Shown: piece after piece, positions 2,087 through 41,800 of the stretch
Numbering within the stretch: the first letter of the stretch is position 1
How the letters are laid out: the number at the start of each line of letters is the position of its first letter
NCBI RefSeq assembly: GCF_032854445.1
Contig: NW_027017953.1
Coordinates: 188,501-252,500 of the forward strand
Source of the DNA: Liolophura sinensis
Taxonomy: Eukaryota; Mollusca; Polyplacophora; Chitonida; Chitonidae
Length of the DNA: 64,000 bases
Direction of reading: 5' to 3'
The notes under the pieces: generated by a model
Seen by the model: only the letters and a program-made list of their open reading frames with translations
Told to the model about the DNA's origin: nothing
Database searches by the model: none
Made by a program: the position numbers and the translations under genes

Positions 2087-2295
2087 GTTTAGCAGATTGG
2101 TCTGAGCCAACAGGTGGAATGTTTCTCTGGATCAAACTAGATGGTATTCCAGACACTTACAAACTGATTTTGGAGAAGGCCAGGGAGAAGGAGGTGTTGT
2201 TTGTGCCTGGGAGCATCTTTCTACCTGACTACACTTCACCCTCGTCCTACATGAGAGCTGCCTACTCACTGGCCACTCCTGAACAAATGGATGAG
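2087..2295 (+). CDS. AADAT: AADAT penultimate exon
   Basis: The acceptor is ttctattccttcccag ending at 2086, and the donor is GAG|gtaagc at 2296. The exon begins with the last two bases of a split codon (phase 1, probably G|GT, Gly) and ends in phase 0. It encodes the small-domain segment with the conserved GMFLW and YMRAAYS motifs. Reading straight through the donor extends the frame about 55 codons into intron repeats, which is not meaningful coding. Confidence 0.92.
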
Positions 2296-13479: not shown

Positions 13480-15220
13480 TGTTTGTGAGGTATAGAAGAC
13501 ATGATAGTGTGCTGTGTGTGAGGTATGGCAGTGTGCTGTGTGAGGTGCTTGTATAGCAGTGTGCAGTGAGGGAGGTATGGCAGGGTGCTATGTGGGGGTA
13601 TGACTGTTGTGTGAGGGGTGACAGTGTGTTGAGTGTGAGGTATAGCAGTGTGCGGTGAGGGAGGTATGGCTGTTGTGTGAGGGGTGGCAGTGTGCTGTGT
13701 GAGGTGCTTGTATAGCAGTGTGCGGTGAGGGAGGTATGGCTGATGTGTGAGGGGTGACAGTGTGTTGTGTGTGAGGTATGGTAGTGTGCTGTGTGAGGTG
13801 CTTGTATAGCAGTGTGCAGTGAGGGAGGTATGGCAGGGTGCTATGTGGGGGTATGACCTGTGTGAGGGGTGACAGTGTGCTGTGTGTGAGGTATTTCAGT
13901 GAGCTAAGTGTGAGGTATGGCAGTGTGCTATGTGTGAAGTATGACAGTGTTGTGTGTGAGGTATGGCAATGAGTTGTGTGTGAGGTACGGTAGTGTGTTG
14001 TGTGTGAGGTATGGTAGTGTGTTGTGTGTGAGGTATTTAGGTGAGCTGGGTGTGAGGTATGGCAGTGAGTTGTGTGTGAGGTATGGCTGTGTGTGAGGTA
14101 TGGCAATGTGTTGTGTGTGAGGTGTGACAGTGCATTGTGTGTGAGGAATGGCAGTGTGCTGTGTGTAAGGTATTTCAGTGAGCTAAGTGTGAGGTATGGC
14201 AGTGTGTGAGGTATGACAGTGTGCTGTGTGTGAGGTATGGCAGTGTGTTGTGTGTGAGGTATGGCTGTGAGTTGTGTGTGAGGTATGGTAGTGTGTTGTG
14301 TGTGAGGTATGGCAGTGTGATGTATTTGAGGTATGGTAGTTTGATGTGTGTGAGGTATGGCATTGTGATATGTGTGAAGTATGGCAGTGTGTTGTGTGTG
14401 AGGTATGGCAGTGTGTTGTGTGTGAGGTATGGCAGTGTGTTGTGTGTGAGGTATGGCAGTGCGTTGTGTGTGAGGAATGGCAGTGTGTTGTGTGTGAGGT
14501 ATTTCAGTGAGCTAAGTGTGAGGTATGTCAGTGTGTGAAGTATGACAGTGTGCTGTGTGTGAGGTATGGCAGTGTGTTGTGTGTGAGGTATGGCAGTGAG
14601 TTGTGTGTGAGGTATGGCAGTGTGTTGTGTGTGAGGAATGGCAGTGTGTTGTGTGTGAGGTATGGCACTGTGTTGTGTGTGAGGAATGGCAATGTGCTGT
14701 GTGTAAGGTATTTCAGTGAGCTAAGTGTGAGGTATAGCAGTGTGTGAGGTATGACAGTGTGCTGTGTGTGAGGTATGGCAGTGTGTTGTGTGTGAGGTAT
14801 GGCAGTGAGTTGTGTGTGAGGTATGGTAGTGTGTTGTGTGTGAGGTATGGCAGTGAGTTGTGTGTGAGGTATGGTAGTGTGTTGTGTGTGAGGTATGGCA
14901 GTGTGATGTATTTGAGGTATAGTAGTTTGATGTGTGTGAGGTATGACAGTGAGCTGTGTGTGAAGTATAGCAGTGTGTTGTGTGTGAGGTATGGCAGTGT
15001 GTTGTGTGTGAGGTATGGCAGTGTGTTGTGTGTGAGGTATGGCAGTGTGTTGTGTGTGAGGTATGGCACTGCGTTGTGTGTGAGGAATGGCAGTGTGATG
15101 TGTGAGGTATGGCAGTGTGATGTGTGTGAGGTATTTAGGTGAGCTTGGTGTGAGGTGTGACAGTGTGTTGTGTGTGAGGTGTGACAGTGTGTTGTGCGAG
15201 GTATGGCAGCATGATGTGTG
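13480..15220. repeat. 24-bp minisatellite in the 3' region of the PR/SET-PLAG gene
   Basis: Core 'gaggtatggcagtgtgttgt' plus gtgt, about 70 units. The left third (13500-13900) has a longer composite unit with gtgcttgtatagcag and ggagggaggtatggc. The array begins immediately after the TAG stop of the zinc-finger exon on the - strand, so it probably lies in the 3' UTR. One degenerate unit lies inside the coding sequence (15291-15330). Confidence 0.93.
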
Positions 15221-15226
15221 AGGAAT

Positions 15227-17070
15227 CTACTGGAATGACTGGGGGGACTGACCAGGAGGCTGTGAAGGATGGCTGTGCTGTGTTGTTTGGGTGTGCTGTG
15301 TGTGAGGTATGGCTGTGTGTTGTGTTTGTTGTGCTAGCTGGGCAATTTGTGAGGCAGGGGGAGGTGGAGGTGGTGGTGGAGGGAGGGGATGCTGCTGCTG
15401 AGGGAATGTGGGTGATGGCCTCTGTATGTGCACCTCTGGAGGCACGAGGTACCCACTTGTAAAAGGCGACGGAGGTGGATTGGGCAAGGGGTGGCCATGG
15501 GGAGGGGGACCCACTGTGGGTAAATTCTCCAGAAACTTTAGTGTTTCAATGTAGCCAACCATAGCTTCAAAAGATTGGGGCGGATTACAAAACTTGTTGT
15601 TGTACAGAGTATTGAGCCGTTGGTTGAACCCATGTTGGAGCTCTGGATTGCTTGGTGGGAGGGGTCTAATTTGATTAACAGGAGGTGGCATGGGCGGAGG
15701 CATACTGGCAAAAGTAGCCTGTATCGGGGGGGGAGGTTGTGATGGACTGTGAGGCGGTGGGGGGGCGGGATGGAGAATGGGAGGGTGGGGTACAGATGTG
15801 GGGGCCTCCGCGGCTATCACATGGGGGCCCGTGGCATAAACGGCCATAGGGGTGAGGTGAGGTCGTAACTGTTGACTGGAGGCTATCACAGAGGCAGGGT
15901 CAAGGACACTGTGAGGCAGAGGGGAAGGGCAGGGTATGGATATGGGGATCTGGTAGGGTGTCACTGTCTGAACCTGACAGTTCACAGAATTAGTAACCAT
16001 GACATCCTCTGAGGACGGAGCGGGATCCTGCCCTTCCATCGTCTCTGCCAGAACTTCTGGGACCTTTTTCCCCTTCCCTGGTCTGCCAGTTTCCTTCTTG
16101 ATGACCACTTGCCCACCGTCTTCTGTTTTCAGGGTTTTAGTGACATGAGATGCGCGGATGTGTCTGGTTAGGTGGTCTTTCCTTCCAAACCTCTGAGGAC
16201 AAAACTGACAGAGATAATCCTTTTTCTTAGTGTGCACAATCAAGTGTCTCTTGACATCCTTCTTGGTGAAGAATCGTTTCTCACAGTATGGACAATTATG
16301 ATGCTTATCTGAGGGTTTTTTCGCCAGCCTGGAACCACTGTGGACGCGGATGTGGAATATAAGCTCCTCTTGGCTAGCGAAATCTTTGTTGCATATTTTA
16401 CAGACCTTATCGCCGTCCTGCGCGGCGTGGAAGGCCATGTGAGTCCTGAAGGTTATGTTGGAGGAGTATTCCTTGCCACAAATGTCACACATATTGGGTT
16501 TTCTGTTCTGGTCATGAACTGCCAGATGAATCTTCAGGTGGTCTTTCCTGTTGAAGGAGCGCTCGCAATAGGCACACTTGAAGTTCTTGGTACCGGTATG
16601 AATGAGCACATGTCTGTCCAGTTTGTATTTGGATGTAAAGCCTTTGCTACAGTTTGGGAAATCACACATAAAGGGCTTTTTGCCAGTATGAACTGATAAG
16701 TGCAGCTTATATGCATTCTCCCCACAGATAGCCTTACAACAGTAAATACATTCAAACACTGGTTTAGGGACTTTCAAAGGCTGAATTTTGGGTAACGCTT
16801 TCCTCTTCTTGGCAGCCGCAACTGCAGCAGCAGCGGACAGACGCTCTTTTCTTTTCGCACTTGATCTTGTGGTCACGAGCTTTCCGCGAATCCTCTTCAT
16901 GGGGCGCCCTTTTCTCCGACTCTTTGATTTTGACTTGTCTTTGCCGGGTTTAGCTGATGCACACTGGTGTTCTTCCAGTTCCTCAAAGGCGATGAAGTTA
17001 GCCTGGCAGACAGTACATTTCCATTCCTCCTCCACAGCAGCCTCCACTGGCTCCTCTTCCTCGCAGTCAT
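15227..17070 (-). CDS. Exon 6: C2HC knuckle, seven PLAG-type zinc fingers, proline-rich tail
   Basis: The exon begins after ctgatttctgattggcag, completing a split Asp codon. The frame upstream hits a stop, so the TTG three codons earlier is not a start. A knuckle with WKCTVCQANF..EELEEHQC is followed by basic runs (KSRRKGRPMKRIRGK) and seven C2H2 fingers on + positions about 16145-16750. Finger 2 has the unusual C-X4-C spacing (CDFPNC) found in PLAG1 (CIQQDC). Fingers 6 and 7 (RRF/KRF.TKKDV.RHL.VHT and QRFGRKDHLTRH) are almost identical to the family. The tail (about 15227-16100) is rich in Pro, His and Gln and ends QSPQSFQ. The last ~30 codons include degenerate 24-bp minisatellite sequence. 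Confidence 0.95.
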
Positions 17071-20000
17071 CTGCCAATCAGAAATCAGATCAGCGCTGAT
17101 TGACAGGTTGACCAAACAGAAGGATTTTTCTTCATCAGACCAAAATGGTGTTTAACTCAGATTGGGCAGCATAGGCTACTGAAGAGCTTGCCAATAGGAG
17201 ACACACAAATGTAAAACTTCAAACTTCAAATAAATAAAATACCTTATCATTTACCTTAACATGGATTCTATACATAAAAGAGTGAATGACATGCATCTTG
17301 GAAGTTAATTAATATGCACATACATGTGGGGCATCTACGATGACATATCCCCCTCATGTAATTGTGCCCTACATGTGCGCCAACCCTGATCTCAGTATGT
17401 ACACACGGAATCAACGCTGTAATATTCCCCTCATGTTACTGTGCTCTATATGTGTGCCAACCCTGATCTCAGTATGTACACACCGAATCAATGATGGAAT
17501 ATTCCCCTCCTGTTACTGTGCTCTATATGTGTGCCAACCCTGATCTCAGTATGTACACACCAAATCAATGCTGGGATATTCCCCTTGTGTTACTGTGCTC
17601 TATATGTGTGCCAACCCTGATCTCAGTATGTACACACCGAATCAACGCTGGAATATTCCCCTCCTGTTACTGTGCTCTATATGTGTGCCAACCCTGATCT
17701 CAGTATGTACACACGGAATAAATGATGGAATATCCCCATGTTATTGTGCTCTGCATGTGTGCCAACCCTGATCTCAGTATGTACACACTGAATCGACCAT
17801 GGAATATCCCCCTCATGTTATTGTCTTCTACATATGTGCCAACCCTTATCTCAGTATGTACACACCGAATCAATGATGGAATATCCCCCTCATGTTATTG
17901 TGCCCTACATGTGTGCCAACCCTGATCTCAGTACATACACACAAAATCAATGATGGAATATCCCCATGTTATTGTGCTCTGCATGTGTGCCAACCCTGAT
18001 CTCAGTATGTACACACCGAATCAACGCTGGAATATTCCCCTCATGTTATTGTGCCTTACCAGTGTGCCAAGCCTGATCTCAGTATGTACACACCGAATCA
18101 GTGATGGAATATCCCCCTCATGTTATTGTGCCCTACATGTGTGCCAACCCCATTCTCAGTATGTACACACCGAATCAATGATGGAATATTCCCATGTTAT
18201 TGTGCTCTACATGTGTGCCAACCCTGATCTCAGTATGTACACCCCGAATCAATGATGGAATATTCCCCTCATGTTATTGTGCCTTACAAGTGTGCCAACC
18301 CTTATCTCAGTATGTACACCCTGAATCGACCATGGAATATCCCCCTCCTGTTACTGTACCCTACATGTGTGCCAACCCTGATCTCAGTATATACAGACCG
18401 AATCAATGATTGAATATCCCCCTCATGTTATTGTGCCTTACAAGTGTGCCAACCCTGATCTCAGTATGTACACACTGAATCGACCATGGAATATCCCCCT
18501 CCTGTTACTGTACCCTACATGTGTGCCAACCCTGAACTCAGTATATACACCCCGAATCAATGATGGAATATTCCCCTCATGTTATTGTGCCTTACAAGTG
18601 TGCCAACCCTTATCTCTGTATGTACACACCGAATCAATGACGGAATATCCCCCTCATGTTATTGTGCCCTACATGTGTGCCAACCCTGATCTCAGTATGT
18701 ACACACCGAATCAACGCTGGAATATTCCCCTCATGTTATTGTGCCTTACCAGTGTGCCAAGCCTGATCTCAGTATGTACACACCGAATCAGTGATGGAAT
18801 ATCCCCCTCATGTTATTGTGCCCTACATGTGTGCCAACCCTATTCTCAGTATGTACACACCGAATCAATGACGGAATATTCCCATGTTATTGTGCTCTAC
18901 ACGTGTGCCAACCCTGATCTCAGTATGTACACCCCGAATCAATGATGGAATATTCCCCTCATGTTATTGTGCCTTACAAGTGTGCCAACCCTTATCTCAG
19001 TATGTACACCCTGAATCGACCATGGAATATCCCCCTCCTGTTACTGTACCCTACATGTGTGCCAACCCTGATCTCAGTATATACAGACCGAATCAATGAT
19101 GGAATATCCCCCTCATGTTATTGTGCCTTACAAGTGTGCCAACCCTGATCTCAGTATGTACACCCTGAATCGACCATGGAATATCCCCCTCCTGTTACTG
19201 TACCCTACATGTGTGCCAACCCTGAACTCAGTATATACACCCCGAATCAATGATGGAATATTCCCCTCATGTTACTGTGCCTTACAAGTGTGCCAACCCT
19301 TATCTCAGTATGTACACGCTGAATCGACCACGGAATATCCCCCTCATGTTCCTGTACCCTACATGTGTGCCAACCCTGAACTCAGTATGTACACACCGAA
19401 TCGACCATGGAATATCCCCCTCATGTTATTGTGCCTTACGTGTGTGCCAACCCTGATCTCAGTATGTACATGCCAAAATGACAATAGAATATCCCCCTCA
19501 TGTTATTGTGCTCTACATGTGTGCCAACCCTGAACTCAGTATGTACACACCGAATCAATGTTGGGATATCCCCCTTATGTTATTGTGCTCTATGTGTGCC
19601 AACCCTGATCTCAGTATGGGCACACCAAATCGACGATGGAATATCTCCCTTATGTTATTGTGTCATACATGTGTGCCAACCCTGATCTCAGTATGTACAC
19701 ACAGAATCGACCATGGAATATCCCCCTCATGTTATTGTGCTCTACATGTGTCCAAAACAAGAGCTAAACACATGAACTATTTTTTTCACATACCACTTGT
19801 AACATTTACCTCATCACTGATTCCATTGCAGACAATACACTAAGTCATAAATTTTGTAATTTACAGATGTAATTCAGCAGATAGTATCAATGATAGGACA
19901 TCCCCATCATGGCAAAACCTCAGCTCAGTATATGCAGTACTTGTTGAGACACCAGTGTAATATTCACCAGACAGAATCTATGATGGGACATCCCCATCAT

Positions 20001-23000
20001 GCAAAAGCTCAGCTCAGTATATGCAGTACTAGCTGAGACACCAGCCTAAAATTCACCAGACAGAATCAATGATAGGACATCCCCATCATGCAAAAGCTCA
20101 GCTCAGTATATGCAGTACTAGCTGAGACACCAGCCGAATATTCACCAGACAGAATCAATGATAGGACATCCCCATCATGCAAAAGCTCAGCTCAGTATAT
20201 GCAGTACTAGCTGAGACACCAGCCTAAAATTCACCAGACAGAATCAATGATGGGACATCCCCATCATGCAAAGCCTCAGCTCAGTATATGCAGTACTTGT
20301 TGAGACACCGGCCTAATATTCACCAGACAGTCAATGATGGGACATCCCCATCATGCAAAAGCTCAGCTCAGTATATGCAGTACTAGCTGAGACACCAGCC
20401 TAAAATTCACCAGACAGAATCAATGATGGGACATCCCCATCATGCAAAAGCTCAGCTCAGTATATGCAGTACTAGCTGAGACACCAGCCGAATATTCACC
20501 AGACAGAATCAATGATGGGACATCCCCATCATGCAAAACCTCAGCTCCGTATATGCAGTACTTCTTGAGACACCAGCCTAATATCGGGGTATAACATTAA
20601 CAACAACAGCTAAACTTTTAGGTGCATTGGGTTGAAAAAGCCTGGGTGGGGGGGTGGGGGGGGTGGGTGGGGGGGGGCTTGGAGGAAACCTGGGAAATAT
20701 GCTAGAGCTTAGAGATAACATGGGAAAGCTTGGGGGAAACACGGGAGAGGTTGGAGGAAAATTGGGAGAGGTTGAGGAAAACCTTGGAGAACTTGGACAA
20801 AACATGGCGGAGCTTCGGGCAAATATGAAAAACTTGGAGGATGCAATGGAAAGCTGAGTGGAACTCTGGAGAATCTGGAGGGAAAACTGAGATAGGTTGG
20901 AGGAAACCTGGCAAAGCTTGGAGAAAACATGGGATAGCTTGAGGGAAACATGAGAGATTAGGAAAATTTTGGGGACACCACTGACCTCTCAGAGGAAACC
21001 AGAAAGCTCTCAGAGGAAACCACAGAACTCTCAGAGTAGATGACTGAGCTCTCAGAGGAAACCACACAGCTCTCAGAGGTTTTTAAACCACACAGCTCTC
21101 AGAGAAAACCACACAGCTCTCAGAGGAAACCACAGAACTCTCAGAGTAGATGACTGAGCTCTCAGAGAAATCCACAGAGCTCTAAGAGGAAATCAAAGGA
21201 AACCACCACGTACAGTCTTGAGTAAAATCGATGAAGTAAAGAAATGGTAAAGTATGGCCACTCACCTTCTGAGTCCCCCTGCAGTCTGGGTAAGACAGGG
21301 GCTTCCATCCAGCTCCCATAATCTCCAGCATACCACACCTTTAACTCTTGGTTTGGGGGAATCACCTAAAACATACAGATCTGACAACAGAGACAATATA
21401 TGCCACCTGGACACACCCTGTCAGAGCTGGCAATAAAGACAGCAGATGCCAACTGGACTTACCCTGTCAAAACTGACTATACAGGCAACAGATGCCAACT
21501 CGACATACCCTGTCAGAACTGGCAATACTAACAACTGATACCACCTGGACAAACCCTGTCAAAAGTGACAATATAGACAACAGATGCCAACTGGACTTAC
21601 CCTGTCAGAACTGACATTACAGACAACATATGTCAGCTGGACATGCCTGTCAAAACTGACAACACAGACAACAGATGCCAACTGGACTTACTCTGTCAAA
21701 ACTGACTATACAGGCAACAGATGCCAACTGGATTTACCCTGTCAACTGACTATACAGGCAACAGATGCCAACTGGACTTACCCTGTCAAAAGTGACAATA
21801 CAGGCAACAGATGCCAACTGGACATGCCTGTCAAAAGTGACAATACAGACAACAGCTGTCAAGCAGACACACCCTGTGAGAACTGGCAATACCGACAACA
21901 GATGTCAACTGGACATACCCTGTCAAAACTGACAATACAGAAAACAGATATCAACTGGACATACCCTGTCAGAACTGGCAATACAGACAACAGATGCCAA
22001 CTGGACATACCCTGTCAAAACTGACAATACAGAAAACAGATATCAACTGGACTTACATGTACCCTGTCTGATCTGGCAATACAGGCAACAGATTTCAACT
22101 GGACATACATGTACCCTGTCAAAACTGACAATACAGACAACAGATGTCAACTGGACATACAAGTGCCCTGTCAAAACTGACAATACAGACAACAGATGTC
22201 AACTGGACATACATGTACCCTGTCAGAATAAAGGTCAACTGGACATGCATGTACCGTCAGAATAGAGGTCAACTGGACATACATGTACCCTGTCAGAACA
22301 GAGGTCAACTGGACATGCATGTACCCTGTCACAATAGAGGTCAACTGGACATACATGTACCCTGTCAGAATAGAGGTCAACTGGACATGCATGTACCCTG
22401 TCAAAACAGATGCCAACTGGACATGCATGTACCCTGTCAGAATAGAGGTCAACTGGACATACATGTACCCTGTCAGAATAGAGGTCAACTGGACATGCAT
22501 GTACCCTGTCAGAATAGAGGTCAACTGGACATACATGTACCCTGTCAGAATAGAGGTCAACTGGACATGCATGTACCCTCAGAATAGAGGTCAACTGGAC
22601 ATACATGTACCCTGTCAGAATAGAGGTCAACTGGACATGCATGTACCCTGTCACAATAGAGGTCAACTGGACATACATGTACCCTGTCAGAATAAAGGTC
22701 AACTGGACATGCATGTACCGTCAGAATAGAGGTCAACTGGACATACATGTACCCTGTCAGAATAGAGGTCAACTGGACATGCATGTACCCTGTCACAATA
22801 GAGGTCAACTGGACATACATGTACCCTGTCAGAATAGAGGTCAACTGGACATGCATGTACCCTCAGAATAGAGGTCAACTGGACATACATGTATCCTGTC
22901 ACAATAGAGGTCAACTGGACATGCATGTACCCTCAGAATAGAGGTCAACTGGACATACATGTACCCTGTCAGAACAGATGCCAACTGGACATACATGTAC

Positions 23001-26000
23001 GCTGTCAGAATAGATCTCAACTGGACGTACATGTACCCTGTCAGAATAGAGGTCAACTGGACATACATCTACCCTGTCAGAATAGAGGTCAACTGGACAT
23101 ACATGTACCCTGTCACAATAGAGGTCAACTGGACATACATGTACCCTGTCACAATAGAGGTCAACTGGACATGCATGTACCCTCAGAATAGAGGTCAACT
23201 GGACATACATGTACCCTGTCAGAATAGATCTCAACTGGACGTACATGTACCCTGTCAGAACAGATACCACCTGGACATACATGTACCCTGTCAGAATAGA
23301 GGTCAACTGGACATACATGTACCCTGTCAGAACAGATACCAACTGGACACACATGTACCCTGTCACAATAGAGGTCAACTGGACATACATGTACCGTCAG
23401 AATAGAGGTCAACTGGACATACATGTACCCTGTCAGAATAGAGGTCAACTGGACATACATGTACCCTCAGAATAGAGGTCAACTGGACATACATGTACCC
23501 TGTCAGAACAGATACCACCTGGACATACATGTACCCTGTCAGAATAGAGGTCAACTGGACATACATGTACCCTGTCAGAATAGAGGTCAACTGGACATGC
23601 ATCTACCCTGTCAGAATAGAGGTCAACTGGACATACATGTACCCTGTCAGAATAGAGGTCAACTGGACATACATGTACCCTCAGAATAGAGGTCAACTGG
23701 ACATACATGTACCCTGTCAAAACAGATGCCACCTGGACATACATGTACCCTGTCAGAATAGAGGTCAACTGGACATACACGTACCCTGTCACAATAGAGG
23801 TCAACTGGACATACATGTACCCTCAGAATAGAGGTCAACTGGACATACATGTACCCTGTCAGAACAGATACCACCTGGACATACATGTACCCTGTCAGAA
23901 TAAAGGTCAACTGGACATACATGTACCCTGTCACAATAGAGGTCAACTGGACATACATGTACCCTGTCAGAATAGAGGTCAACTGGACATGCATGTACCC
24001 TCAGAATAGAGGTCAACTGGACATACATGTACCCTGTCAGAATAGATCTCAACTGAACGTACATGTACCCTGTCAGAACAGATACCACCTGGACATACAT
24101 GTACCCTGTCAGAATAGAGGTCAACTGGACATACATGTACCCTGTCAGAACAGATACCAACTGGACATACATGTACCCTGTCACAATAGAGGTCAACTGG
24201 ACATACATGTACCCTGTCACAATAGAGGTCAACTGGACATGCATGTACCGTCAGAATAGAGGTCAACTGGACATACATGTACCCTGTCAGAATAGATGCC
24301 AACTGGACACACATGTACCCTGTCAGAACAGATACCACCTGGACATACATGTACCCTGTCAGAACAGATACCAACTGGACATACATGTACCCTGTCACAA
24401 TAGAGGTCAACTGGACATACATGTACCGTCAGAATAGAGGTCAACTGGACATACATGTACCCTGTCAGAACAGATACCACCTGGACATACATGTACCCTG
24501 TCAGAATAGAGGTCAACTGGACATACATGTACCCTGTCAGAATAGATGCCAACTGGACACACATGTACCCTGTCAGAATAGAGGTCAACTGGACATACAT
24601 GTACCGTCAGAATAGAGGTCAACTGGACATACATGTAACCTGTCAGAATAGAGGTCAACTGGACATGCATCTACCCTGTCAGAATAGAGGTCAACTGGAC
24701 ATACATGTACCCTGTCAGAATAGAGGTCAACTGGACATACATGTACCCTGTCAGAACAGATACCACCTGGACATACATGTACCCTGTCAGAATAGAGGTC
24801 AACTGGACATACACGTACCCTGTCACAATAGAGGTCAACTGGACATACATTTACCCTGTCACAATAGAGATCAACTGGACATACATTTACCCTGTCACAA
24901 TAGAGATCAACTGGACATGCATCTACCCTGTCAGAATAGAGGTCAACTGGACATACATGTACCGTCAGAATAGAGGTCAACTGGACATACATGTACCCTG
25001 TCACAATAGAGGTCAACTGGACATACATGTACCGTCAGAATAGAGGTCAACTGGACATACATGTACCCTGTCACAATAGAGGTCAACTGGACATACATCT
25101 ACCCTGTCAGAATAGAGGTCAACTGGACATACATGTACCCTGTCACAATAGAGGTCAACTGGACATACATGTACCCTGTCAGAATAGAGGTCAACTGGAC
25201 ATGCATGTACCCTCAGAATAGAGGTCAACTGGACATACATGTACCCTGTCAGAATAGATCTCAACTGGACGTACATGTACCCTGTCAGAACAGATACCAC
25301 CTGGACATACATGTACCCTGTCAGAATAGAGGTCAACTGGACATACATGTACCCTGTCACAATAGAGGTCAACTGGACATGCATGTACCCTGTCAGAATA
25401 GAGGTCAACTGGACATACATGTACCCTGTCACAATAGAGGTCAACTGGACATACATGTACCCTGTCAGAATAGAGGTCAACTGGACATACACGTACCCTG
25501 TCACAATAGAGGTCAACTGGACATACATGTACCCTGTCAGAATAGATCTCAACTGGACGTACATGTACCCTGTCAGAACAGATACCACCTGGACATACAT
25601 GTACCCTGTCAGAATAGAGGTCAACTGGACATACATGTACCCTGTCACAATAGAGGTCAACTGGACATACATGTACCCTGTCAGAATAGAGGTCAACTGG
25701 ACATGCATCTACCCTGTCAGAATAGAGGTCAACTGGACATACATGTACCGTCAGAATAGAGGTCAACTGGACATACATGTACCCTGTCAGAATAGAGGTC
25801 AACTGGACATGCATCTACCCTGTCAGAATAGAGGTCAACTGGACATACATGTACCGTCAGAATAGAGGTCAACTGGACATACATGTACCCTGTCAGAATA
25901 GAGGTCAACTGGACATACATGTACCCTGTCAGAATAGAGGTCAACTGGACATACATGTACCCTGTCAGAACAGATACCACCTGGACATACATGTACCCTG

Positions 26001-29000
26001 TCAGAATAGAGGTCAACTGGACATACATGTACCCTGTCAGAATAGAGGTCAACTGGACATACATGTACTGTCAGAATAGAGGTCAACTGGGCATACATGT
26101 ACCCTGTCAGAATAGAGGTCAACTGCACATACATGTACCCTCAGAATAGAGGTCAACTGGACATACATGTACCCTGTCAGAACAGATACCACCTGGACAT
26201 ACATGTACGCTGTCAGAATAGAGGTCAACTGGACATACATGTACCCTGTCAGAATAGAGGTCAACTGGACATACATGTACCCTGTCACAATAGAGGTCAA
26301 CTGGACATACATTTACCCTGTCACAATAGAGGTCAACTGGACATACATGTACCCTCAGAATAGAGGTCAACTGGACATGCATGTACCCTCTGAATAGAGG
26401 TCAACTGGACATACATGTACCCTGTCACAATAGAGGTCAACTGGACATGCATCTACCCTGTCAGAATAGAGGTCAACTGGACATACATGTACCGTCAGAA
26501 TAGAGGTCAACTGGACATGCATGTACCGTCAGAATATCACATCAATTCACAGCAAACAGCAACCTGATGTTTTGAAACAGTTCTATTCTTTCTCTTTCAC
26601 TACAAAGGTAATCTCCAGACATTAAAGAAATAATCGACAACTTAAAAGAAGCTTATTTAGGATAATCTGTTGATTGGAAATTATTGATATACAATGTAGC
26701 CTCGCTATAAGATGCCTCGATATAGCGCCTAACCAGATATAACTTGACCGAAATCTTGTCCCCCAAAAATCGGTGGTGTACTTTCATGTGAGAACAGCTA
26801 AAACTGCAAACGATTTTTCATCCAGAAATATATATGAATAACGCAACATCATTTCCTTCATTTCCTACTCTTGGTGTGTGACCAATGTGTTATTTGATAT
26901 TTTAGGCTTAAGGCTTTGGCTTTTAAACATAATGCCAGCGTAAGCAAAAAGAAATGGATTTTTCTATGGACTCACAGCGACCGCATTGGTGAGAGGCTCC
27001 TGTGTCATTACGCTGCACTTGCGCACTAACCAAATGAGCCACGGAGGCTCCCCTTTCAATAAATACTGATAACTTTATTCAGATTATTGAATGGCTATAA
27101 TGCTATGTCAGTGAGATTTGGCTTACCTGCATGCTCATATGCGAGTTGAGATGAACTCAAGGCTTCCTAATTTTTTCCCCTTTCCTTCATTTAATACACT
27201 GGTAGGGCATGATATACAATAAAATGGTGAACATTATTTTTTTTTCTTATTCAGTACCTATAACATAGTCACATGATCGGGTTGACAGTTGTCCGCAGTC
27301 CACCATTTAGAATTTAAGGCATCTAAGTTCCAGGAGGTACTTCTGATACAAGCAAATATGGGCAAACTCGATACCAAACGCACTGTAGCTAATTTTATTT
27401 TTAAAAATTTAAAATTAAAGGGGATGAAACTACGTTACTTGAATTTAGCTTGTGGAAATGGTTAACATTCACCTAGATCTGCACATCAGCTCATGCCTGA
27501 GATCTTGTGATATGAGTCTAGCTTTGCGAGACATGATTTGCAGAATGGTACTGAGATCCCTCTGGTCCGTAATGTAACTTGTGTACCGTAGAATACATGT
27601 ACTAGTTGAATCCTTAGGTAACAAAAAATCTCACGTGTTTATACAGTTTAGTATTAAAACCACATGTAACAATAAGAAAGCATTTGACAAAACCCATTTT
27701 GCATCGATAAAGCTTTGATCTATGTCAAAATCATGACTTACAGGTACACGTAAGGCTGGCTGTAGCCCTTATACTGGATCCCAAGGCCATTTCATGATAG
27801 CACGAGGTAGCCTATAACACACTGAGGAACCTGTCCCCAAAGCAGGGTGATATAGCGAGGATACACTGCATTTATTTGATTGATATTTTTCCTCAATTAC
27901 AGTCAGATTCAAGGAATGTGAGGAAAACCCTACCTCATCACAACCATCTCCTGACATAAGCCTGAACTGAGCTGTAAGACAAGTCTGTGGCTTGCAGACC
28001 AGACAACTGATGGTTAGCCAGTCTCAATACGGTGTATCAAAATACAGAGAAGACATGTGGAACATTTTATTCTTACTTTGGTGGTGGTAAAGTATATTCT
28101 GTCTTTGTACTGGTAGGCCACCATGTTAACCTCTTCTGCATAGCGAGCTGTCTGTACAAATATCATCCAGTTACAGTCGTACTCGTTGCTCTGGTCCAGC
28201 CAAGTCCAGCTGCCACTCCCATCAAAGATCTTCAAAACACACAGACAGAACTACAGGTGAGCATTTGACACAGAGAGAAGTATTATGTACCATTCACACA
28301 TGGTCGTCACTTCATGCCATACTCAACAATATTTGATTTAAGTCAGTGGTCAGGTTTAAGCTGGAAAGAACTGACCAGATGTCGGAAGAAAACTCCCCAC
28401 CTTGCCAGGTCTTCAGCCTGATTTGCTTGTGCTGCCGCCCTGAACTCTACCTGGAGTCTGATTTGCTTGTGCTGCCGCCCTGAACTCTACCTTGAGTCTG
28501 ATTTGCTTGTGCTCCTGCCGTGAACTCTACCTTGTGTCTGATTTGCTTGTGCTGCTGCCCTGAACTCTACCTTGAGTCTGATTTGCTTGTGCTTCCTGTC
28601 CCGAACTCTACCTTGAGTCTGATTTGCTTGTGCTGTTGCCCTGAACTCTACCTTAAGTCTGATTTGCTTGTGCTGCCGCCCTGAACTCTACCTTGAGTCT
28701 GATTTGCTTGTGCTGCTGCCCTGAACTCTACCTTGAGTCTGATTTGCTTGTGCTTCCTGTCCCGAACTCTACCTTGAGCCTGATTTGCTTGTGCTGTTGC
28801 CCTGAACTCTACCTTGAGTCTGATTTGCTTGTGCTGCCGCCCTGAACTCTACCTTGAGTCTGATTTGCTTGTGCTGCTGCCCTGAACTCTACCTTGAGTC
28901 TGATTTGCTTGTGCTGCTGCCCTGAACTCTACCTTGAGTCTGATTTGCTTGTGCTGCTGCCCTGAACTCTACCTTGAGTCTGATTTGCTTGTGCTTCCTG

Positions 29001-32000
29001 TCCCGAACTCTACCTTGAGTCTGATTTGCTTGTGCTGCCGCCCTGAACTCTACCTTGAGTCTGATTTGCTTGTGCTGCCGCCCTGAACTCTACCTTGAGT
29101 CTGATTTGCTTGTGCTTCCTGTCCCGAACTCTACCTTGAGTCTGATTTGCTTGTGCTGTTGCCCTGAACTCTACCTTAAGTCTGATTTGCTTGTGCTGCC
29201 GCCCTGAACTCTACCTTGAGTCTGATTTGCTTGTGCTGCTGCCCTGAACTCTACCTTGAGTCTGATTTGCTTGTGCTGCCGCCCTGAACTCTACCTTGAG
29301 TCTGATTTGCTTGTGCTTCCTGTCCCGAACTCTACCTTGAGTCTGATTTGCTTGTGCTGTTGCCCTGAACTCTACCTTAAGTCTGATTTGCTTGTGCTGC
29401 CGCCCTGAACTCTACCTTGAGTCTGATTTGCTTGTGCTGCTGCCCTGAACTCTACCTTGAGTCTGATTTGCTTGTGCTCCTGCCGTGAACTCTACCTTGT
29501 GTCTGATTTGCTTGTGCTGCTGCCCTGAACTCTACCTTGAGTCTGATTTGCTTGTGCTTCCTGTCCCGAACTCTACCTTGAGTCTGATTTGCTTGTGCTG
29601 TTGCCCTGAACTCTACCTTAAGTCTGATTTGCTTGTGCTGTTGCTCTGACGACGGCTCTTCTTCACAGACAGGTGCCTCCAAAGGACCAAACATGGTGCG
29701 CTTCTGCACTATTTTCTTGGCCACAACACTGTATACTGAACAAGAGAAAAGGGTTTATCATCATTACACAACAAATACAAAACACAGGTAGATACATTTA
29801 CAATGAATTTGAACTTAACAAGATACACTGATAAAACTATGGTCTGTTTCTATTAACTTGTCACCTATATTCAGCCATCTGTGAAACTTGTCACCTATAT
29901 TCAGCCATCTGTCATTCTCACAACCAAAATTTCCTTTCATCAGTGACACAGAATTACACAAGATCTACATATCCATATGTAGAACTCCTTTAGCTTTTTC
30001 TCGACACCAAGAACTCAAGAACGCAATCTCAAACATGGCAGCTTCAGAGACAGGGCTTAGAGTAATGTCAATTGTAGTTTAGGTAATTGGTGTCCCTCTC
30101 CATCAAAAATACTGGACTTCACCCATTCTCCAGCACGCCCTCGTTGTCACCAAAGGCCATGGGTTCTTGGTGTAAAAAACTGATGGAATTATCATCATGT
30201 GAACTTGTGATTCTTACTTTAATCCAAAAGAATATTTCATCAGCATAAATTAATTTACTCATTTGGTCTTACCCGCTTTACTCAAGAATTTAGCATTTTT
30301 TTGAGAGTAGGTTTATGGCTGGAAGAAAACCAGAACAGTTGTTGTAAGCAACCACTCATAAGGTACCAGACACCTCCTGACCTAAAGTACCCACTCTTCA
30401 CCAGGTACCTGACGCACCTCCTGACCTAAAGCATTCGCTCTTCACGAGGTACCTGACACACCTCCTGACCTAAAGCAACTGCTCTTCACCAGGTACCTGA
30501 CGCACCTCCTGACCTAAAGCACTTGCTCTTCACCAGGTACCTGATGCACCTTCTGACCTAAAACAACTGCTCTTCACGAGGTACCTGACACACCTCCTGA
30601 CCTAAAGCAACTGCTCTTCACCAGGTACCTGACACACCTCCTGACCTAAAGCAACTGCTCTTCACCAGGTACCTGACGCACCTCCTGACCTAAAGCACTT
30701 GCTCTTCACCAGGTACCTGATGCACTTTCTGACCTAAAGCAACTGCTCTTCACCAGGTACCTGACACACCTCCTGACCTAAAGTAACTGCTCTTCACCAG
30801 GTACCTGACGCACCTCCTGACCTAAAGCACTTGCTCTTCACCAGGTACCTGATGCACCTTCTGACCTAAAGCAACTGCTCTTCACCAGGTACCTGACGCA
30901 CCTCCTGACCTCAAGCACTCGCTCTTCACTAGGTACCTGACGCACCTCCTGACCTAAAGCAACCACTCTTCACCAGGTACCTGATGCACTTTCTGACCTA
31001 AAGCTCTTGCTCTTCACCAGGTACCTGACGCACCTTCTGACCTAAACCAACCGCTCTTCACCAGGTACCTGATGCATCTCCTGACCTAAAGCAACCGCTC
31101 TTCACCAGGTACCTGATGCACTTTCTGACCTAAACCAACCGCTCTTCACCAGGTACCTGATGCATCTCCTGACCTAAAGCAACCACTCTTCACCAGGTAC
31201 CTGATGCACTTTCTGACCTAAAGCTCTTGCTCTTCACCAGGTACCTGACACACCTCCTGACCTAAAGCAACTGCGCTTCACCAGTTACCTGACGCACCTC
31301 TAACCACTGGGCAAGCAGGGGGCTCTGCAGTACAACATAACCACTGGGAAAGCAGGGGGCTCTACATAACAAGATAACCACTGGGCAAGCAGGGGGCTCT
31401 ACAGTACAACGTAGCCACTGGGCAATGACAGGGCGCTTTATATCATACAATAACCATCCTTATGCTTTCCTCCCACCCTGCCGTTTTCAAGAGCTTAGTT
31501 TTATAAAGTAACACGTACAGTTGAGTCCCTCTGAGGACAGCCCAAGGCCCTTGAGGGACAGCATATGGGGTACGGTCAGCTTGGCCTTGCTGGGGATTTC
31601 ACGGTCTCGCACCTTGATAAGTGGACCATGGGAGGGACAGTTAGCTGTGTAACTCTTTCCACAGTCCTCACACCCTAAAAGGTACAAGACAATGACAAAA
31701 AACAACATATAGATAATGTATTTCGATTTAAACTTCAGTGATTTTAATTTTAGCAAACATTGTTATGAAGACACTTCTCAAATTATTGTATATTAAAGGC
31801 TATAGAAGTTTTCTTTGTTAAAGTAATTCATAAAGTGAATTTCATTCAAGATCACACAATGTAACAATGTGTGGAAAATGTATATTCAAGATCACACAAT
31901 GTAACAATGTGTGGAACATGTTCATCCCTTATCTCCCTCTGTTTCTGAATAGACACACATGATAATGTCACTGGTGGTGTTCATCAGTCATGTTTGCAGA

Positions 32001-34215
32001 CATAGTCTTTGTGAGGTGGTTGTTTTTGTTGATATGTAGATGAGCCAGGGTCACTTTGACATCAGGACATTCTTCTTCTTGGGAGAACAAGTAAAGTCGT
32101 TTTTAGCAAATTATAGACTACACATTTGTTCAGTACATTTCTGGCCAAAAATAAGCTTAATATTGCATACACAAAATTATAGAATAAATTATAGAGAATC
32201 ACCACCATCTATTTACTCTGAAGCTTTTGCAGTTCACCTTGAAGATTAGCATTTTCTGGTCAGTTTAGTTTAAACTAGTCAAGAGTAGTTTATACATACC
32301 ACGGTACAAATTATAGACTAGATTTTAAGACTGAACAATAGATGCTTTAATTTGCATGCATATATATTGAATAGTATGCTTGCTTTTGCAAGAAATATCT
32401 GCCCTTCACCTCTTTAATGGGACACATTTTTTGACCTGGCCTTGGCTCAGTAAGAGAAATAAATGCCATATATCATTATGCAGGGCTTCCTCTGGGTCAG
32501 TAATTTTTACTATTTTTTTCAGCCAGTAACTTTAGTCACTCATCAGATTTTGAAGTAAATACTATTTTTAGCCATACTTCCTTAGTGGCCATGACTGTTG
32601 TAGGTCTCCTTCTGTAATTCATTTATATCTGCCTTGGTGTAGCTGCTAGAATCAGTTTGGCCTCATCCCACTGTATCTGGAGTTTACCAAACACTACATT
32701 AGAACAATTGCCCCCAAAATAATGGACCAGTGCTTGGCAGCGTGTTTTTGTTTTTTTGAAAAAAAAAAATCAATCCTTTTTTTTTCAATCTATCTGTAGG
32801 GTCCTAGTAAAATGTAATTTCCTCTATCAGAAAAATTTGTTATGAAACCAATTTGTAAATTCAGTTTATTGAAATGCAACATTATGACCTGTACATTGGA
32901 GTAACACAGTCTGACAGGAGAAAACCAGACGGCGTACACATTTATGTTACGGCACATATTCTGAAACATTTAACTTACTTCGGATTCAAAAAAAAAAGTT
33001 CATTAAGTGGAAAAGTTTAAATTTTTCATGGGAGGTAACTTACATGTGTAAGTTAAATGAGGCCGTTTGAAATAAAAGTAAGTGGATTATTTTCATAAGA
33101 AAAATTGCGAAATCTGCTAAACGCCCCAGAAAACTCTCGTGATAGATTTTGTATAACATTTGTATTTTTTCTTAAGTCAATAAATTTGTCATCAAAGGCA
33201 TTTGCATTTTTTCAAATTTTATCGCCATTTCAAAAAAAAAAAACACAGGCTCTCCCCATTGTCTAAATTTGTGACAATTGGGAGAGCAAGCGGAAGCCCT
33301 GATTATGGGAGAATTGTATTTTTCAAGCACTTTCACAGGGTTTCAAGGACAGTGCGCACCCTGTATTAGAAACGTGTGTTGGCATGAAAAATATCATTTT
33401 AAGGTCTTTATGTGCTTGTGAAAGTGCATTTTACACTGGAATCTAGGTGAAATACAGTACAGCCTTACTGAAGTTATGAACCATAATGTTACAACAATAT
33501 ATAAGTCAGATTTACTGAGTAACTAAATGCAATGGTTCAAATGGCACAACTCCAGTAGGACAGCAGCTTTCCAAGATGGCATGTACCAATACAAAGGCTG
33601 GCTGAGGACACTGTCCTTCATGTATGATGACCTGATCAATATCACATTAACCAGGACGCACAATGCATGAACATAATTGCAGAGGGAATATCTGTAGTCA
33701 ACAATCATTATTTGCAGAATTAAAAAAAAACGTTCAACCCTATTTTCTCCTGATAGGGCTGTGTTACCCTCAAACAAGAGCTTTCTAAGGACGGCCTAGC
33801 ATATACAATGTAAGGTATCAACTACCGCTGTATTATCATGGTTTTGTACAAACAGGTTAGCTGTTCATTGATGTTGAGCCAATAAGCAAGTACAATGCTC
33901 TGAAAACACTGACATTTTTACCTGTTTATTAGCGAACACAAGGCTAACCTTGTGTGTTAACTGTTGCATTTGCTTACAACATATAAAATGCAATTACTCA
34001 GCCATCTACTCACAGAGTGAAGCAAATTTCTGTGTTTTAGTGGAGTGAGGGCTGATTGACTCCTGAGTAGGTTGTTGAGGGTAGAGCGTTGCCAAGGTAA
34101 CCTCAGGTGGTGAGGCTGGGGATGAGACCTGTATCATGTCCATTCTAATGGATGTTTCCATGGCAGCGGGGGCTGTTTCCATGGCAGCAGAGGCTAGATG
34201 GACCTGATCTGCCAT
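15227..34215 (-). CDS. PR/SET-domain protein with seven PLAG-type C2H2 zinc fingers
   Basis: Complement join of 34014-34215, 31519-31674, 29617-29735, 28077-28229, 21266-21365 and 15227-17070: 2574 nt, 857 residues. All splice phases agree (1,1,0,0,1). It is probably a nuclear sequence-specific transcription regulator. Residues about 68-240 form a PRDM-type PR/SET domain with pre-SET cysteines: WCEDCGKSY..CPSHGPL, KRTMFGPLEAP, CNWMIFVQTA, VAYQYKDRIYFTT, NQELKVWYAGDY. This is closest in my recall to PRDM10, then PRDM4. A C2HC-like knuckle (about 262-280) and a basic stretch (about 286-335) follow. Seven C2H2 fingers span about 351-552, and each has a counterpart in human PLAG1 in the same order. 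The C-terminal 300 residues are proline-rich. SET methyltransferase activity cannot be judged; many PR domains are inactive. It is either a PLAG orthologue that kept or gained a SET domain, or a PRDM gene with PLAG fingers. Confidence 0.88.
17071..17338. other. Intron edge upstream of the zinc-finger exon
   Basis: Unique intron sequence carrying the acceptor of the zinc-finger exon on the - strand, followed by AT-rich sequence up to the 77-bp array. Confidence 0.6.
17339..19750. repeat. 77-bp minisatellite in the PR/SET-PLAG intron
   Basis: About 31 copies. The core is 'tgtgccaaccctgatctcag' then tatgtacacaccgaatcaatgatggaatatccccctcatgtta. A block starting near 18194 recurs at about 18884 (690 bp, nine units), showing higher-order duplication. 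A single diverged unit is found at 59396-59490, far away and next to SINE sequence, which suggests a dispersed source. Confidence 0.95.
19870..20585. repeat. 89-bp minisatellite in the PR/SET-PLAG intron
   Basis: About 8 copies with core 'gctcagctcagtatatgcag' and caatgatgggacatccccatcatg. The phrases 'aatcaatgatggga.atcccc' and 'ctcagtat' match the adjacent 77-bp array, so the two arrays probably descend from one element. Confidence 0.93.
20640..20680. other. G-rich tract with quadruplex potential
   Basis: Several runs of three to nine G separated by single T in about 35 bp on the + strand (C-rich on the transcribed - strand). It lies in the intron between exons 5 and 6 of the PR/SET-PLAG gene. 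Confidence 0.75.
20681..21185. repeat. Degenerate ~30-bp and ~42-bp repeats
   Basis: 20685-20965 has diverged copies around 'gcttggaggaaacctgggaa' and aacatgggaaagctt. 20975-21180 has 'ctctcagaggaaaccacag' copies alternating with actctcagagtagatgactgag. Both lie in the intron just downstream of exon 5. Confidence 0.8.
21266..21365 (-). CDS. Exon 5: end of the PR/SET domain
   Basis: The acceptor is ctgtatgttttag and the donor TCAGAAG|gtgagt. It encodes VIPPNQELKVWYAGDYGSWM and then a linker ending DSE(D). ELKVWYA..YA is the terminal SET motif of PRDM10-like proteins. It starts in phase 0 and ends in phase 1; the final G joins AT of the zinc-finger exon (Asp). It is flanked by unrelated arrays on both sides. 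Confidence 0.92.
21375..26535. repeat. 36-bp minisatellite with a 46-bp variant block, ~130 copies
   Basis: From 21375 to about 22200 units are ~46 bp, with core 'acaacagatgccaactggac' and ataccctgtcaaaactgac. From about 22200 to 26535 a 36-bp unit takes over: 'gtaccctgtcagaatagagg' then tcaactggacatacat. Shorter units lack ccct or tgt, and there are subtypes (aacagatacc, aatagatctc, cacaatagag). It lies in the intron between exons 4 and 5 of the PR/SET-PLAG gene. The 36-bp period leaves frames open on both strands; none is a gene. Confidence 0.95.
26536..28070. other. Unique intron sequence of the PR/SET-PLAG gene
   Basis: AT-rich sequence with one partial SINE (26965-27055). No other feature is recognised. 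The right end holds the exon 4 donor. Confidence 0.55.
26965..27055 (-). mobile_element. SINE fragment, tRNA-like head only
   Basis: The sequence 'cattggtgagaggctcctgt' then gtcattacgctgc...ctaaccaaatgagccacggaggc matches the head of the fuller SINE at 54609-54866 in the same orientation. The body and A-rich tail are missing, although a tail-like phrase (cttcatgccatactcaacaatatttga) occurs at about 28311. Confidence 0.7.
28077..28229 (-). CDS. Exon 4: PR/SET core, CNWMIFV and VAYQYKDRIYFTT
   Basis: 51 codons, phase 0 at both ends. The acceptor is ctgtgtgttttgaag and the donor ACCAAA|gtaaga. It encodes IFDGSGSWTWLDQSNEYDCN, then WMIFVQTARYAEEVNMVAYQ and YKDRIYFTTTK. The CNWM.FV.....EE.N.VAYQY pattern is the hallmark of PRDM SET domains. 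Joining exon 3 gives QIRLK-IFDG, which fits the family's ..LKV.. strand. No tandem array touches this exon. Confidence 0.93.
28230..28398. other. Intron 3 edge next to exon 4
   Basis: Unique sequence carrying the exon 4 acceptor and a possible SINE tail remnant at 28311-28337. Confidence 0.5.
28399..29640. repeat. 40-bp minisatellite made of an exon-3/intron donor junction
   Basis: About 31 copies. On the - strand each unit is CAACAGCACAAGCAAATCAG followed by ACTTAAG (coding end of exon 3) and GTAGAGTTCAGGG (intron start). Variants include CTCAAG, CACAAG and 41-42 bp units with GGGACAGGAAG. Every copy I inspected keeps the GTAGAG donor. The copy used for splicing is the one adjoining the unique part of exon 3. 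Confidence 0.95.
29617..29735 (-). CDS. Exon 3: PR/SET domain, FGPLEAP segment
   Basis: The acceptor is tttctcttgttcag; the exon encodes YSVVAKKIVQKRTMFGPLEA and continues to HKQIRLK. The 'I.KGTRFGP' type motif is diagnostic of PR/SET domains. The donor is CTTAAG|gtagag at 29616. The last 27 coding bases plus 13 intron bases form the unit of the array at 28399-29640, so about 30 further copies of this donor follow downstream in the intron. Skipping this donor keeps the frame open for about 55 more codons, to 29452. Confidence 0.88.
29736..30350. other. Unique intron sequence of the PR/SET-PLAG gene
   Basis: No exon recognised. It contains a 30-bp tandem duplication at 29858-29915 ('ttgtcacctatattcagcca' twice). 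Confidence 0.5.
30355..31300. repeat. 44-bp minisatellite
   Basis: About 21 copies with core 'tcaccaggtacctgacgcac' then ctcctgacctaaagcaactgctct. It lies in the intron between exons 2 and 3 of the PR/SET-PLAG gene. No exon sequence is included. Confidence 0.95.
31301..31435. repeat. ~36-bp repeat, 3-4 copies
   Basis: 'taaccactgggcaagcaggg' then ggctctacagtacaac; it lies between the 44-bp array and the donor of exon 2. Confidence 0.85.
31519..31674 (-). CDS. Exon 2: pre-SET cysteines and start of the PR/SET domain
   Basis: The acceptor is tgtcttgtaccttttag and the donor AACT|gtacgt. The exon encodes (W)CEDCGKSYTANCPSHGPL followed by a hydrophobic strand ending GLGLSSEGLN. PRDM4 and PRDM10 have WC..C....CP.HGP at the same point, where the Cys/His set binds zinc. 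It enters and leaves in phase 1; the last T joins TA of the next exon (Leu). Confidence 0.92.
31681..34000. other. Unique first intron of the PR/SET-PLAG gene
   Basis: AT-rich with poly-A and poly-T runs at 32750-32785 and 33231-33242. A 40-bp direct tandem duplication lies at 31842-31922 ('ttcaagatcacacaatgtaa' twice). No coding segment is recognised. Confidence 0.5.
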
Positions 34216-38800: not shown

Positions 38801-41800
38801 CACCACAGCTCACCAAAGACACACCACAGGCTTTCCAAAGACAAACCACAGCTCACCAAAGATACACAACAGGCTCTCCAAAGGCACACCACAACTCTCC
38901 AAAGGCACACCACAGGCTGCAAAAGTCTCACCACAGCTTACCAAGCATACAACACAGGCTCCCCAAAGGCACAACACAGCTCACTCTCTCAAAGATACAC
39001 CACAGGCTCCCCAAGGGCACACCACAGCTCACTCTCTCAAAGACACACCACTGGCATTCCAAAGACAAACCACAGCTCACCAAAGATACACAACAGCTTC
39101 TCCAAAGGCACACCACAGCTCACCAAAGACACACCACAGGCTTTCCAAAGACAAACCACAGCTCACCAAAGATACACCACAGGCTCTCCAAGGGCACACC
39201 ACAGCTCACCAAAGACACACCACAGGCCCACCAAGAGCACACCACAGCTCACCAAAGATACACCACAGCCTCACCAAAGGCACACCACAGCTCACCTAAA
39301 ATACACCACAGGCTCTCCAAAGGCACACCACAGCTCACTCTCTCAAAGATACACCACAGGCTTGCCAAGAGCACACCACAGCTCACCAAAGATACACCAC
39401 AGCCTCACCAAAGGCACACCACAGCTCGCCAAAGATACACAACAGGCTCTCCAAATGCACACCACAGCTTACCAAAGATACACCACAGGCTCGCCAAGAG
39501 CACACCACAGCTCACCAAAGATACACCACAGCCTCACCAAAGGCACACCACAGCTCACCTAAGATACACCACAGGCTCTCCAAAGGCACACCACAGCTCA
39601 CTCTCTCAAAGATACACCACAAGCTCTCCAAGAGCACACCACAGCTCACCAAGACACACCACAGGCTTTCCAAAAAAAAAAAAAACACAGCTCACCAAAG
39701 ATACACAACAGGCTCTCCAAAGGCACACCACAGCTCACCATAGATACACCACAGGCTCTCCAAAGGCACACCACAGGCTCTCCAAAGGCACACCACAGCT
39801 CACTCTCTCAAAGATACACCACAGGCTCTCCAAGAGCACACCACAGCTCACCAAAGACACACCACAGGCTTTCCAAAGACAAACCACAGCTCACCAAAGA
39901 TACACCACAGGCTCTCCAAAGGCACACCACAACTCTCCAAAGGCACACCACAGCTGCCCAAAGTCTCACCACAGCTTACCAAACATACACCACAGGCTCC
40001 CCAAAGGCACAACACAGCTCACTCTCTCAAAGATACACCACAGGCTCTCCAAGGGCACACCACAGCTCACTCTCTCAAAGACACAAGACTGGCATTCCAA
40101 AGACAAACCACAGCTCACCAAAGATACACAACAGCTTCTCCAAAGGCACACCACAGCTCACCAAAGATACACTACAGGCTCTCCAAAGGAACACCACAGC
40201 TCAACAAAGATACACCACAGCGTCACCAAAGGCACACCACAGCTTACCTAAGATACACCACAGGCTCTCCAAAGGCACACCACAGCTCACTCTCTCAAAG
40301 ATACACAACAGGCTCTCCAAATGCACACCACAGCTCACCAAAGATACACCACAGGCTCTCCAAAGGCACACCACAGCTCACCAAAGATACACCACAACCT
40401 CACCAAAGGCACACTACAGCTCACCTCAAAGATACACCACAGGCTCTCCAAAGGCACACCATAGCTAACCAAAGGCACACCACAGGCTTCCAAAAACAAA
40501 CCACAGCTCACTAAAGATACACCACAGGCTTTCCAAAGGCACACAACAGCTCATCAAAGATACACCACAGGTTCTCCAAAGGCACACCACAGGCTGTCTA
40601 AAAACAAACCACAGCTCACCAAATATACACCAAAGGCTTTCCAAAGGCACACAACAGCTCATCAAAGATACACCACAGGTTCTCCAAAGGCACACTACAG
40701 GCTCTCCAAAAACAAACCACAGCTCACTAAAGATACACCAGAGGCTTTCCAAAGATACACAACAGCTCATCAAAGATACACCACAGGCTTTCCAAAGGCA
40801 AACCACAGCTCATCAAAGATACACCACAGGCTCACCAAAGGCACACCACAGCTCATCAAAGATACACCACAGGCTTTCCAAAGGCAAACCACAGCTCATC
40901 AAAGATACACCACATGCTCACCAAAGGCACACAACAGTACAACTAAGATGCACCAAAAGCTCTCCAAAGGCACGCCACAGCTCACCAAAGATATCCCACA
41001 GGCTCACTAAAAGCACAGCACTGCTCATCTAAGACTGTAATTCTTTATTTGTTTATTGAGGGATTTCCCACAGCTCTATAGCCACGAGGGGATCTCCTCA
41101 ACAAAACATCAACGTATATACACCAACATAGAAAACAAAGAGAACAAATGACATGTACATGTACAGAATAAGGTGATGGGAACAAAGAAAGATCAAAATC
41201 AAATCATATTACTGCTGGGCTTGGATGATGAATCTATTGGACATGCGTATAAAATTATGCACAGATTTTAAGATCAATTGATTATTATTCACGCTTAGTT
41301 CAGGTGAACCAAATAAGAGTAAAGTACAAATGTGTTTAGAACAACTAGTCAAAAATACAGAAGGGTGAACTCCAGGAGATATAATTCTAAAGATGCTTTT
41401 TAGCATGTGCTTTCTATGAGTGGCATTGGTGGGGCATTCAAGGAAATAATGAGATGCATTTTCACATTTATGTTTACATTTACTACCTGACTGATCATCG
41501 ATAATGTTATATTTAAAGAGGTCACCGTGAAGAGCGCTCAGTTCCATTCTCATTCTACGGAGCACAACAAAGGTGTCAAATGAATTATACACAGATGTTA
41601 GATCACAGATAATACTGTCTTGAGAGTACAAAAAGTTCTTAACTGTTTCCAGTGAAGAGTTTTGGATATGAACAGGCAATGAATTCCATTCTTTAGTAGT
41701 CTTGGGAAAGAAGGAAGAAGAGAAAATCTGAGTTTGGCATTTAAATAATCGAAAGTGATGTCTATTTCTAAGATTGTAGGCATTTGTTTCGCTGTTATAC

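Follow-up and report, generated by a model that had tools for sequence, protein, structure and literature searches.

A single gene of the chiton Liolophura sinensis very probably encodes, as judged from its DNA, a PRDM10/15-type protein that carries the PLAG seven-finger array as its DNA-binding part. PRDM proteins regulate chromatin; the growth regulators PLAG1, PLAGL1, and PLAGL2 are also cancer genes. The gene lies in the window, by which we mean the whole stretch of 64,000 bases that was analysed, and comprises six minus-strand exons (34215-15227) that join into 2574 bases, giving 857 residues and a stop (Table 1). A sequence-only reading had proposed six phase-matched exons running from the SET domain to the fingers, and the model could be rebuilt as proposed. 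All five introns have gt...ag borders, the junction phases (1, 1, 0, 0, and 1) are all compatible, and the named motifs are present at residues 68 (WCEDC), 135 (FGPLEA), 178 (CNWMIFV), and 217 (ELKVWYA). In the product, a PRDM zinc knuckle is followed by the PR/SET domain, one lone finger, and seven C2H2 fingers; 350 residues, the PR/SET domain among them, precede the first cysteine of the array. The start codon and the first exon are predicted and form the least certain part of the model.

Tandem repeats, as masked by TRF, make up 37,757 of the 64,000 bases of the window. At the intron 3 minisatellite, splicing from the donor of any copy after the first would add repeat sequence to the message and, for 19 of these 28 other copies, shift the reading frame. 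The C-terminal coding sequence (QHTAIPHTQHTQ) passes into a 24-base minisatellite (13506-15333), and a like reading, HTAIPHTQ, continues past the stop at 15227.

Table 1. Features of the predicted gene and its surroundings, in window positions.
Feature	Position	Strand	Content	Evidence
Exon 1	34014..34215	-	Predicted start, low-complexity N-terminus; ends within the knuckle Trp codon	gt donor; joins exon 2 in frame
Exon 2	31519..31674	-	PRDM zinc knuckle (WCEDC...CPSHG), first part of PR/SET domain	PF18445 1.8e-7; alignment with PRDM9 chain 4c1q
Exon 3	29617..29735	-	PR/SET domain, FGPLEA; donor inside first copy of a ~40-base minisatellite
Exon 4	28077..28229	-	PR/SET core, CNWMIFV, IYF	PF21549 61.6 bits (whole-genome search)
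Exon 5	21266..21365	-	End of PR/SET domain, ELKVWYA
Exon 6	15227..17070	-	Acidic stretch, single C-x2-C finger, basic GRP-containing linker, seven PLAG-type fingers, Pro/Gln-rich C-terminus, stop
Seven-finger PLAG-type array in exon 6	16115..16762	-	Search query
Intron 3 minisatellite	28418..29649	-	Also covers last 33 bases of exon 3	TRF; donor AAG/GTAGAG x29, that of exon 3 included
LINE-like retrotransposon	41212..44392	-		RVT_1 7e-10

The PR/SET domain and the finger array

Profile searches of the product matched the Pfam families PRDM2_PR (PF21549, 1.9e-33), PRDM zinc knuckle (PF18445, 1.8e-7), and SET (3.7e-6), and placed C2H2 fingers in exon 6. In the PDB, the SET half scores highest with PRDM9 (87 bits) and next with PRDM10 (83 bits), and all 13 distinct matches are PRDM proteins, one of them a PRDM14-CBFA2T2 construct. 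In the alignment with PRDM9 chain 4c1q, the query from WCEDC onward meets the first residue of the chain. An N-terminal PR/SET domain with C2H2 fingers C-terminal to it, as found in the spliced model, would place the product in the PRDM family.

PR domains were found at 16 places in the chiton genome, the window included (21 matches). A tree of 18 rows was built from the window domain, nine of the 15 PR domains found elsewhere in the chiton genome, and eight PRDM domains from the PDB; the PR rows are exon joins made by eye. Six chiton domains (L006 and L011-L015) were left out because both domain halves were not found or the sequences were very divergent. The eight PDB domains were drawn from 15 distinct chains, those set aside being two of PRDM9, one each of PRDM1 and PRDM2, and PRDM5, MECOM, and PRDM16. 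The window domain groups with human PRDM10, a chiton PRDM10-like gene (C1:95.92 Mb), and a chiton PRDM15-like gene (C3:21.83 Mb), the last so labelled without a PRDM15 reference sequence, at a support of 97/94. When the long-branched PRDM15-like row is removed (17 rows), the window and the two PRDM10 rows hold together at 98/92. A grouping with PRDM4 was rejected (p-AU 0.02), in a test chosen after the tree had been seen. The earlier description of the motifs as PRDM10-like is borne out by this SET-domain phylogeny for the PRDM10/15 group as a whole. The gene is not the PRDM10 ortholog, as it has seven PLAG-type fingers and one more, not about ten, and the chiton has its separate PRDM10-like gene. 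On its sequence, the window gene is a third chiton member of the PRDM10/15 group, given the tree grouping and the presence of separate PRDM10-like and PRDM15-like genes.

The window gene shares with PRDM10 and PRDM15 the PR/SET domain, the tree group, and a phase 0 border between exons 3 and 4, which falls at the same place in both chiton relatives when compared by eye. Neither of these two genes has an intron where exons 4 and 5 of the window gene meet. Behind the SET domain, the single C-x2-C finger and the basic GRP-containing stretch repeat the layout of the chiton PRDM10-like gene. We rejected this finger as proof of a PRDM10-like opening of exon 6: its score against the exon of the chiton PRDM10-like gene was reached by 24 of 2000 shuffles and by 24 of 177 control-array fingers, and with that many control fingers doing equally well the score is not specific for PRDM10. 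The fingers set the genes apart, since PRDM10 is described with ten (PMC7368010), the chiton PRDM10-like and PRDM15-like ORFs have 11 and 15 by our count, and the window gene, which differs from PRDM10 and PRDM15 in this respect, keeps its seven PLAG-type fingers all in one exon.

The kinship of the array with PLAG was assessed against working reference sequences for the finger regions of PLAG1, PLAGL1, and PLAGL2, written out independently of database entries; all comparisons with these proteins are to be read with that in mind. The sequence-only reading had described seven C2H2 fingers collinear with PLAG1 and PLAGL2 and a C-X4-C second finger, and exactly this array occupies residues 351-552. 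The long linker between fingers 5 and 6 is likewise shared with the three reference proteins. The window protein scores 209 bits against the working sequence of PLAG1 (48% over 204 residues), 200 bits against that of PLAGL1 (45% over 205 residues), and 198 bits against that of PLAGL2 (49% over 179 residues). The corresponding best scores among 22 other chiton finger ORFs, taken from the 12 next best places of the genome search with exon 6 and from the PR loci, are 116, 97, and 102 bits. At helix positions -1 to 6, fingers 1-7 equal the working PLAG1 sequence at 1, 6, 6, 1, 2, 5, and 7 of seven residues, so that the contact helices are kept in fingers 2, 3, 6, and 7 (5-7 of 7 positions) and have diverged in fingers 1, 4, and 5. 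The contact residues of fingers 3, 6, and 7 are thus among those retained. Vertebrate PLAG members are not known to have a SET domain and carry their fingers near the N-terminus; the modelled product departs from this form, with a PR/SET domain in front of the array. It also differs in exon structure, as PLAG1 is described with fingers 3-7 alone in its exon five (PMC12317869) and the window gene has no intron between fingers 2 and 3.

Searching the chiton genome with the whole of exon 6 returned the gene itself at 1432 bits and the next place at 99 bits (best 71 of 1229 candidates scored), and a search with fingers 6-7 gave 115 and 44 bits (best 150 of 845 candidates scored). No second PLAG-type array was found among these candidates in the assembly, and none is likely to exist in the chiton genome, a conclusion that stops short of proof because the best candidates alone were scored. 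Pattern searches for relatives of the array gave 11 matches in bacterial and archaeal genomes and one in viral contigs, of which none was confirmed, as expected for an animal gene. Among 60 listed of 122 PDB finger matches, there was no PLAG chain.

The PR domain of the window gene resembles PRDM9 in sequence, whereas the arrays differ: PRDM9 has near-identical fingers, and the PLAG-type fingers of the window have a mean identity of 0.33 (five fingers compared). Elsewhere in the genome, one locus (L001, G000:C2:15655500-15659500, 816-3623) is PRDM9-like: its PR domain has Tyr in each of the three positions that are catalytic in PRDM9, and its 12 fingers are nearly identical to one another (mean pairwise identity 0.86), varying most at helix positions 3 and -1 and less at 6. 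This pattern is known from PRDM9 recombination factors, and the locus is possibly a PRDM9-type gene of the chiton. Three further loci, L006, L007, and L008, have PRDM14-type PR domains by eye, the best PDB match of L008 being PRDM14 (138 bits).

Origin of the combined gene

We lean slightly, at about an even chance, towards an old PRDM gene whose vertebrate descendants are the PLAG genes without the SET part. In its specific form, which we hold more tentatively and a shade under an even chance, the bilaterian ancestor would have had a third gene of the PRDM10/15 class, from which the vertebrate PLAG genes descend with loss of the PR/SET domain, and the chiton would keep the undivided ancestor. 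The main rival is a lineage-specific fusion, a serious contender whose chance we put appreciably below even, in which a mollusc or chiton duplicate of PRDM10 was joined to a stand-alone PLAG gene at the phase 1 intron behind the SET domain, with no free PLAG copy left.

The age of the PR domain bears directly on this choice. An old split from PRDM10 has as its simplest history an ancestral SET-PLAG gene whose SET part was lost on the way to vertebrate PLAG, and a recent split would point to fusion. The PR domains of chiton PRDM10-like and human PRDM10 are identical at 0.55 of positions, those of the window and either of these two at 0.44, and those of the window and the PRDM15-like gene at 0.34. 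The window domain is therefore further from the chiton PRDM10-like domain than the latter is from its human counterpart, which suggests an old split and speaks against fusion. The best trees agree in pairing the two PRDM10 rows with each other, yet at a support of 75/38, which becomes 82/57 once the long row is removed; the tree that instead pairs the window with the chiton PRDM10-like gene, as fusion would have it, is not rejected (p-AU 0.31). By the same test, a separation of the window domain from PRDM10 before molluscs and vertebrates parted is neither shown nor rejected. Fusion is also favoured by the single phase 1 junction, which suits exon joining, and by the bivalve Mulinia lateralis, for which 11 PRDM proteins with 0-20 fingers are listed, none of them with seven or eight (PMC10451705). 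The whole comparison draws on the genome of one chiton species.

The term PLAG does not occur in the main texts of the Mulinia study (PMC10451705) and of a 2007 survey of PRDM genes (PMC2082429). Among titles and opening lines of abstracts, we found no article that unites the PRDM and PLAG families and, for PLAG1 with PRDM10, none on the origin of these families; a 2016 comparison of animal Prdm genes lay outside the scope of this search. A paper on thyroid cancer names both PLAG and PRDM. The gene may already appear under a PRDM subfamily in the 2016 study, and it could well have been recorded before as a PRDM gene without a name.

Integrity of the gene and of its scaffold

We expect the gene to be transcribed as one unit from the SET part through the finger array. 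The alternative, which we consider improbable, is that two neighbours were joined in the model only: one gene with just the SET part, which stops before 17070, and a PLAG gene whose coding part starts in or near exon 6. It draws on the gene model being a prediction from genomic DNA and on an internal Met at residue 301, 50 residues ahead of the first finger Cys, not far from the roughly 35 residues that precede it in PLAG1. Against it, exon 5 ends in a consensus donor whose phase 1 fits the acceptor of exon 6; by eye, the same phase is found at the SET-to-finger border of the chiton PRDM15-like gene. No other minus-strand finger ORF was seen between exon 5 and the left end of the window in ORF lists inspected by eye (at least 60 residues from 10 to 40 kb; repeat-masked, at least 90 residues, and at least 60 to the left of 7.8 kb).

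Coding signal within exon 6 also argues against two genes. Codon scoring, with other finger ORFs of the chiton (8,526 codons) as training set and six frames compared per exon, prefers the used frame over the other five in five of the six exons (1-4 and 6), with a tie for exon 5 (-0.01 versus -0.00 for another frame). Because the training set is rich in fingers, the score partly reflects amino-acid make-up. From the acceptor of exon 6 to the first internal Met, it reaches 0.33 per codon in the used frame, compared with -0.07 or less in the other five. With such a signal ahead of the internal Met, a PLAG-like start does not appear to be where coding begins. The proposed SET-PLAG gene thus stands as a single-gene model, supported by its borders, its phases, the coding signal of exon 6, a junction phase as in the PRDM15-like gene, and the fact that no other PLAG-type array was found, and its PRDM10-like character stands for the wider PRDM10/15 group.

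An assembly or contamination artefact is highly improbable: the gene sits on an unplaced scaffold of 1.46 Mb (C14), but the window contains no N and the gene model no assembly gap, the gene was found once in the genome and is therefore not a leftover haplotype copy, and a LINE that lies about 7 kb upstream of exon 1 is represented on 12 of the 13 large scaffolds by copies of 81-95% identity. A 684-base piece of its reverse transcriptase gave at least 40 further matches in the genome at 81-95% (40 of 157 candidates scored), none listed on C3. Given these relatives on 12 of 13 large scaffolds, C14 is part of this animal's genome.

In the same window, an ORF at 2062-2460 (+) resembles the end of an aminotransferase by eye and has no Pfam match. 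Two other loci, L031 and L032, consist mostly of tandem repeats. The assembly also holds a 15.2-kb mitochondrial contig (C632), whose gene order is presumably the ancestral molluscan one, and besides it a scaffold (C99) with seven COX1 copies about 15.5 kb apart. This spacing points to tandem mitochondrial genomes on C99, either as an assembly product or as a nuclear insertion.

Likely function and significance

In PLAG1, finger 3 is described as contacting the G-cluster of the site, with the core motif left to fingers 6 and 7 (PMC12317869), and the site of Plag1 and Plagl2 is given as GRGGC N6-8 GGG (PMC6262857). Fingers 3, 6, and 7 of the chiton protein would accordingly be those that bring it to PLAG-like GC-rich sites, of the vertebrate form GRGGC, a 6-8 base spacer, and GGG. 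The PR domain would act mainly as a recruitment or activation module. The catalytic tyrosines of PRDM9 are Y276, Y341, and Y357 (PMC5519329), and in two alignments the window has L, F, and Y at these positions, with Tyr at Y357 only. With one of three tyrosines kept, methyltransferase activity is expected to be weak at most; loss of a single tyrosine is described as no proof of lost activity (PMC5519329), and PRDM15 is reported with the same one of the three, Y357 (PMC9861158). For PRDM10, transcription is reported to be activated by the PR-domain part on its own and likewise by the Q-rich C-terminus (PMC7368010), and by analogy we expect a similar division of activation between the PR part and the C-terminus here. 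The product is likely a regulator that combines PLAG-like targeting with a PR domain that keeps one PRDM9 catalytic tyrosine.

The PLAG and PRDM families count as separate in vertebrates, and the gene bears on the origin of PLAG because it joins the two in one. With both halves in hand, this origin becomes testable, and the gene hints at which cofactors an ancestral PLAG protein recruited. It also offers a natural experiment on the role of a PR domain at PLAG sites. If the descent of vertebrate PLAG from a third PRDM10/15-class gene is true, the PLAG genes would be PRDM genes without a SET domain.
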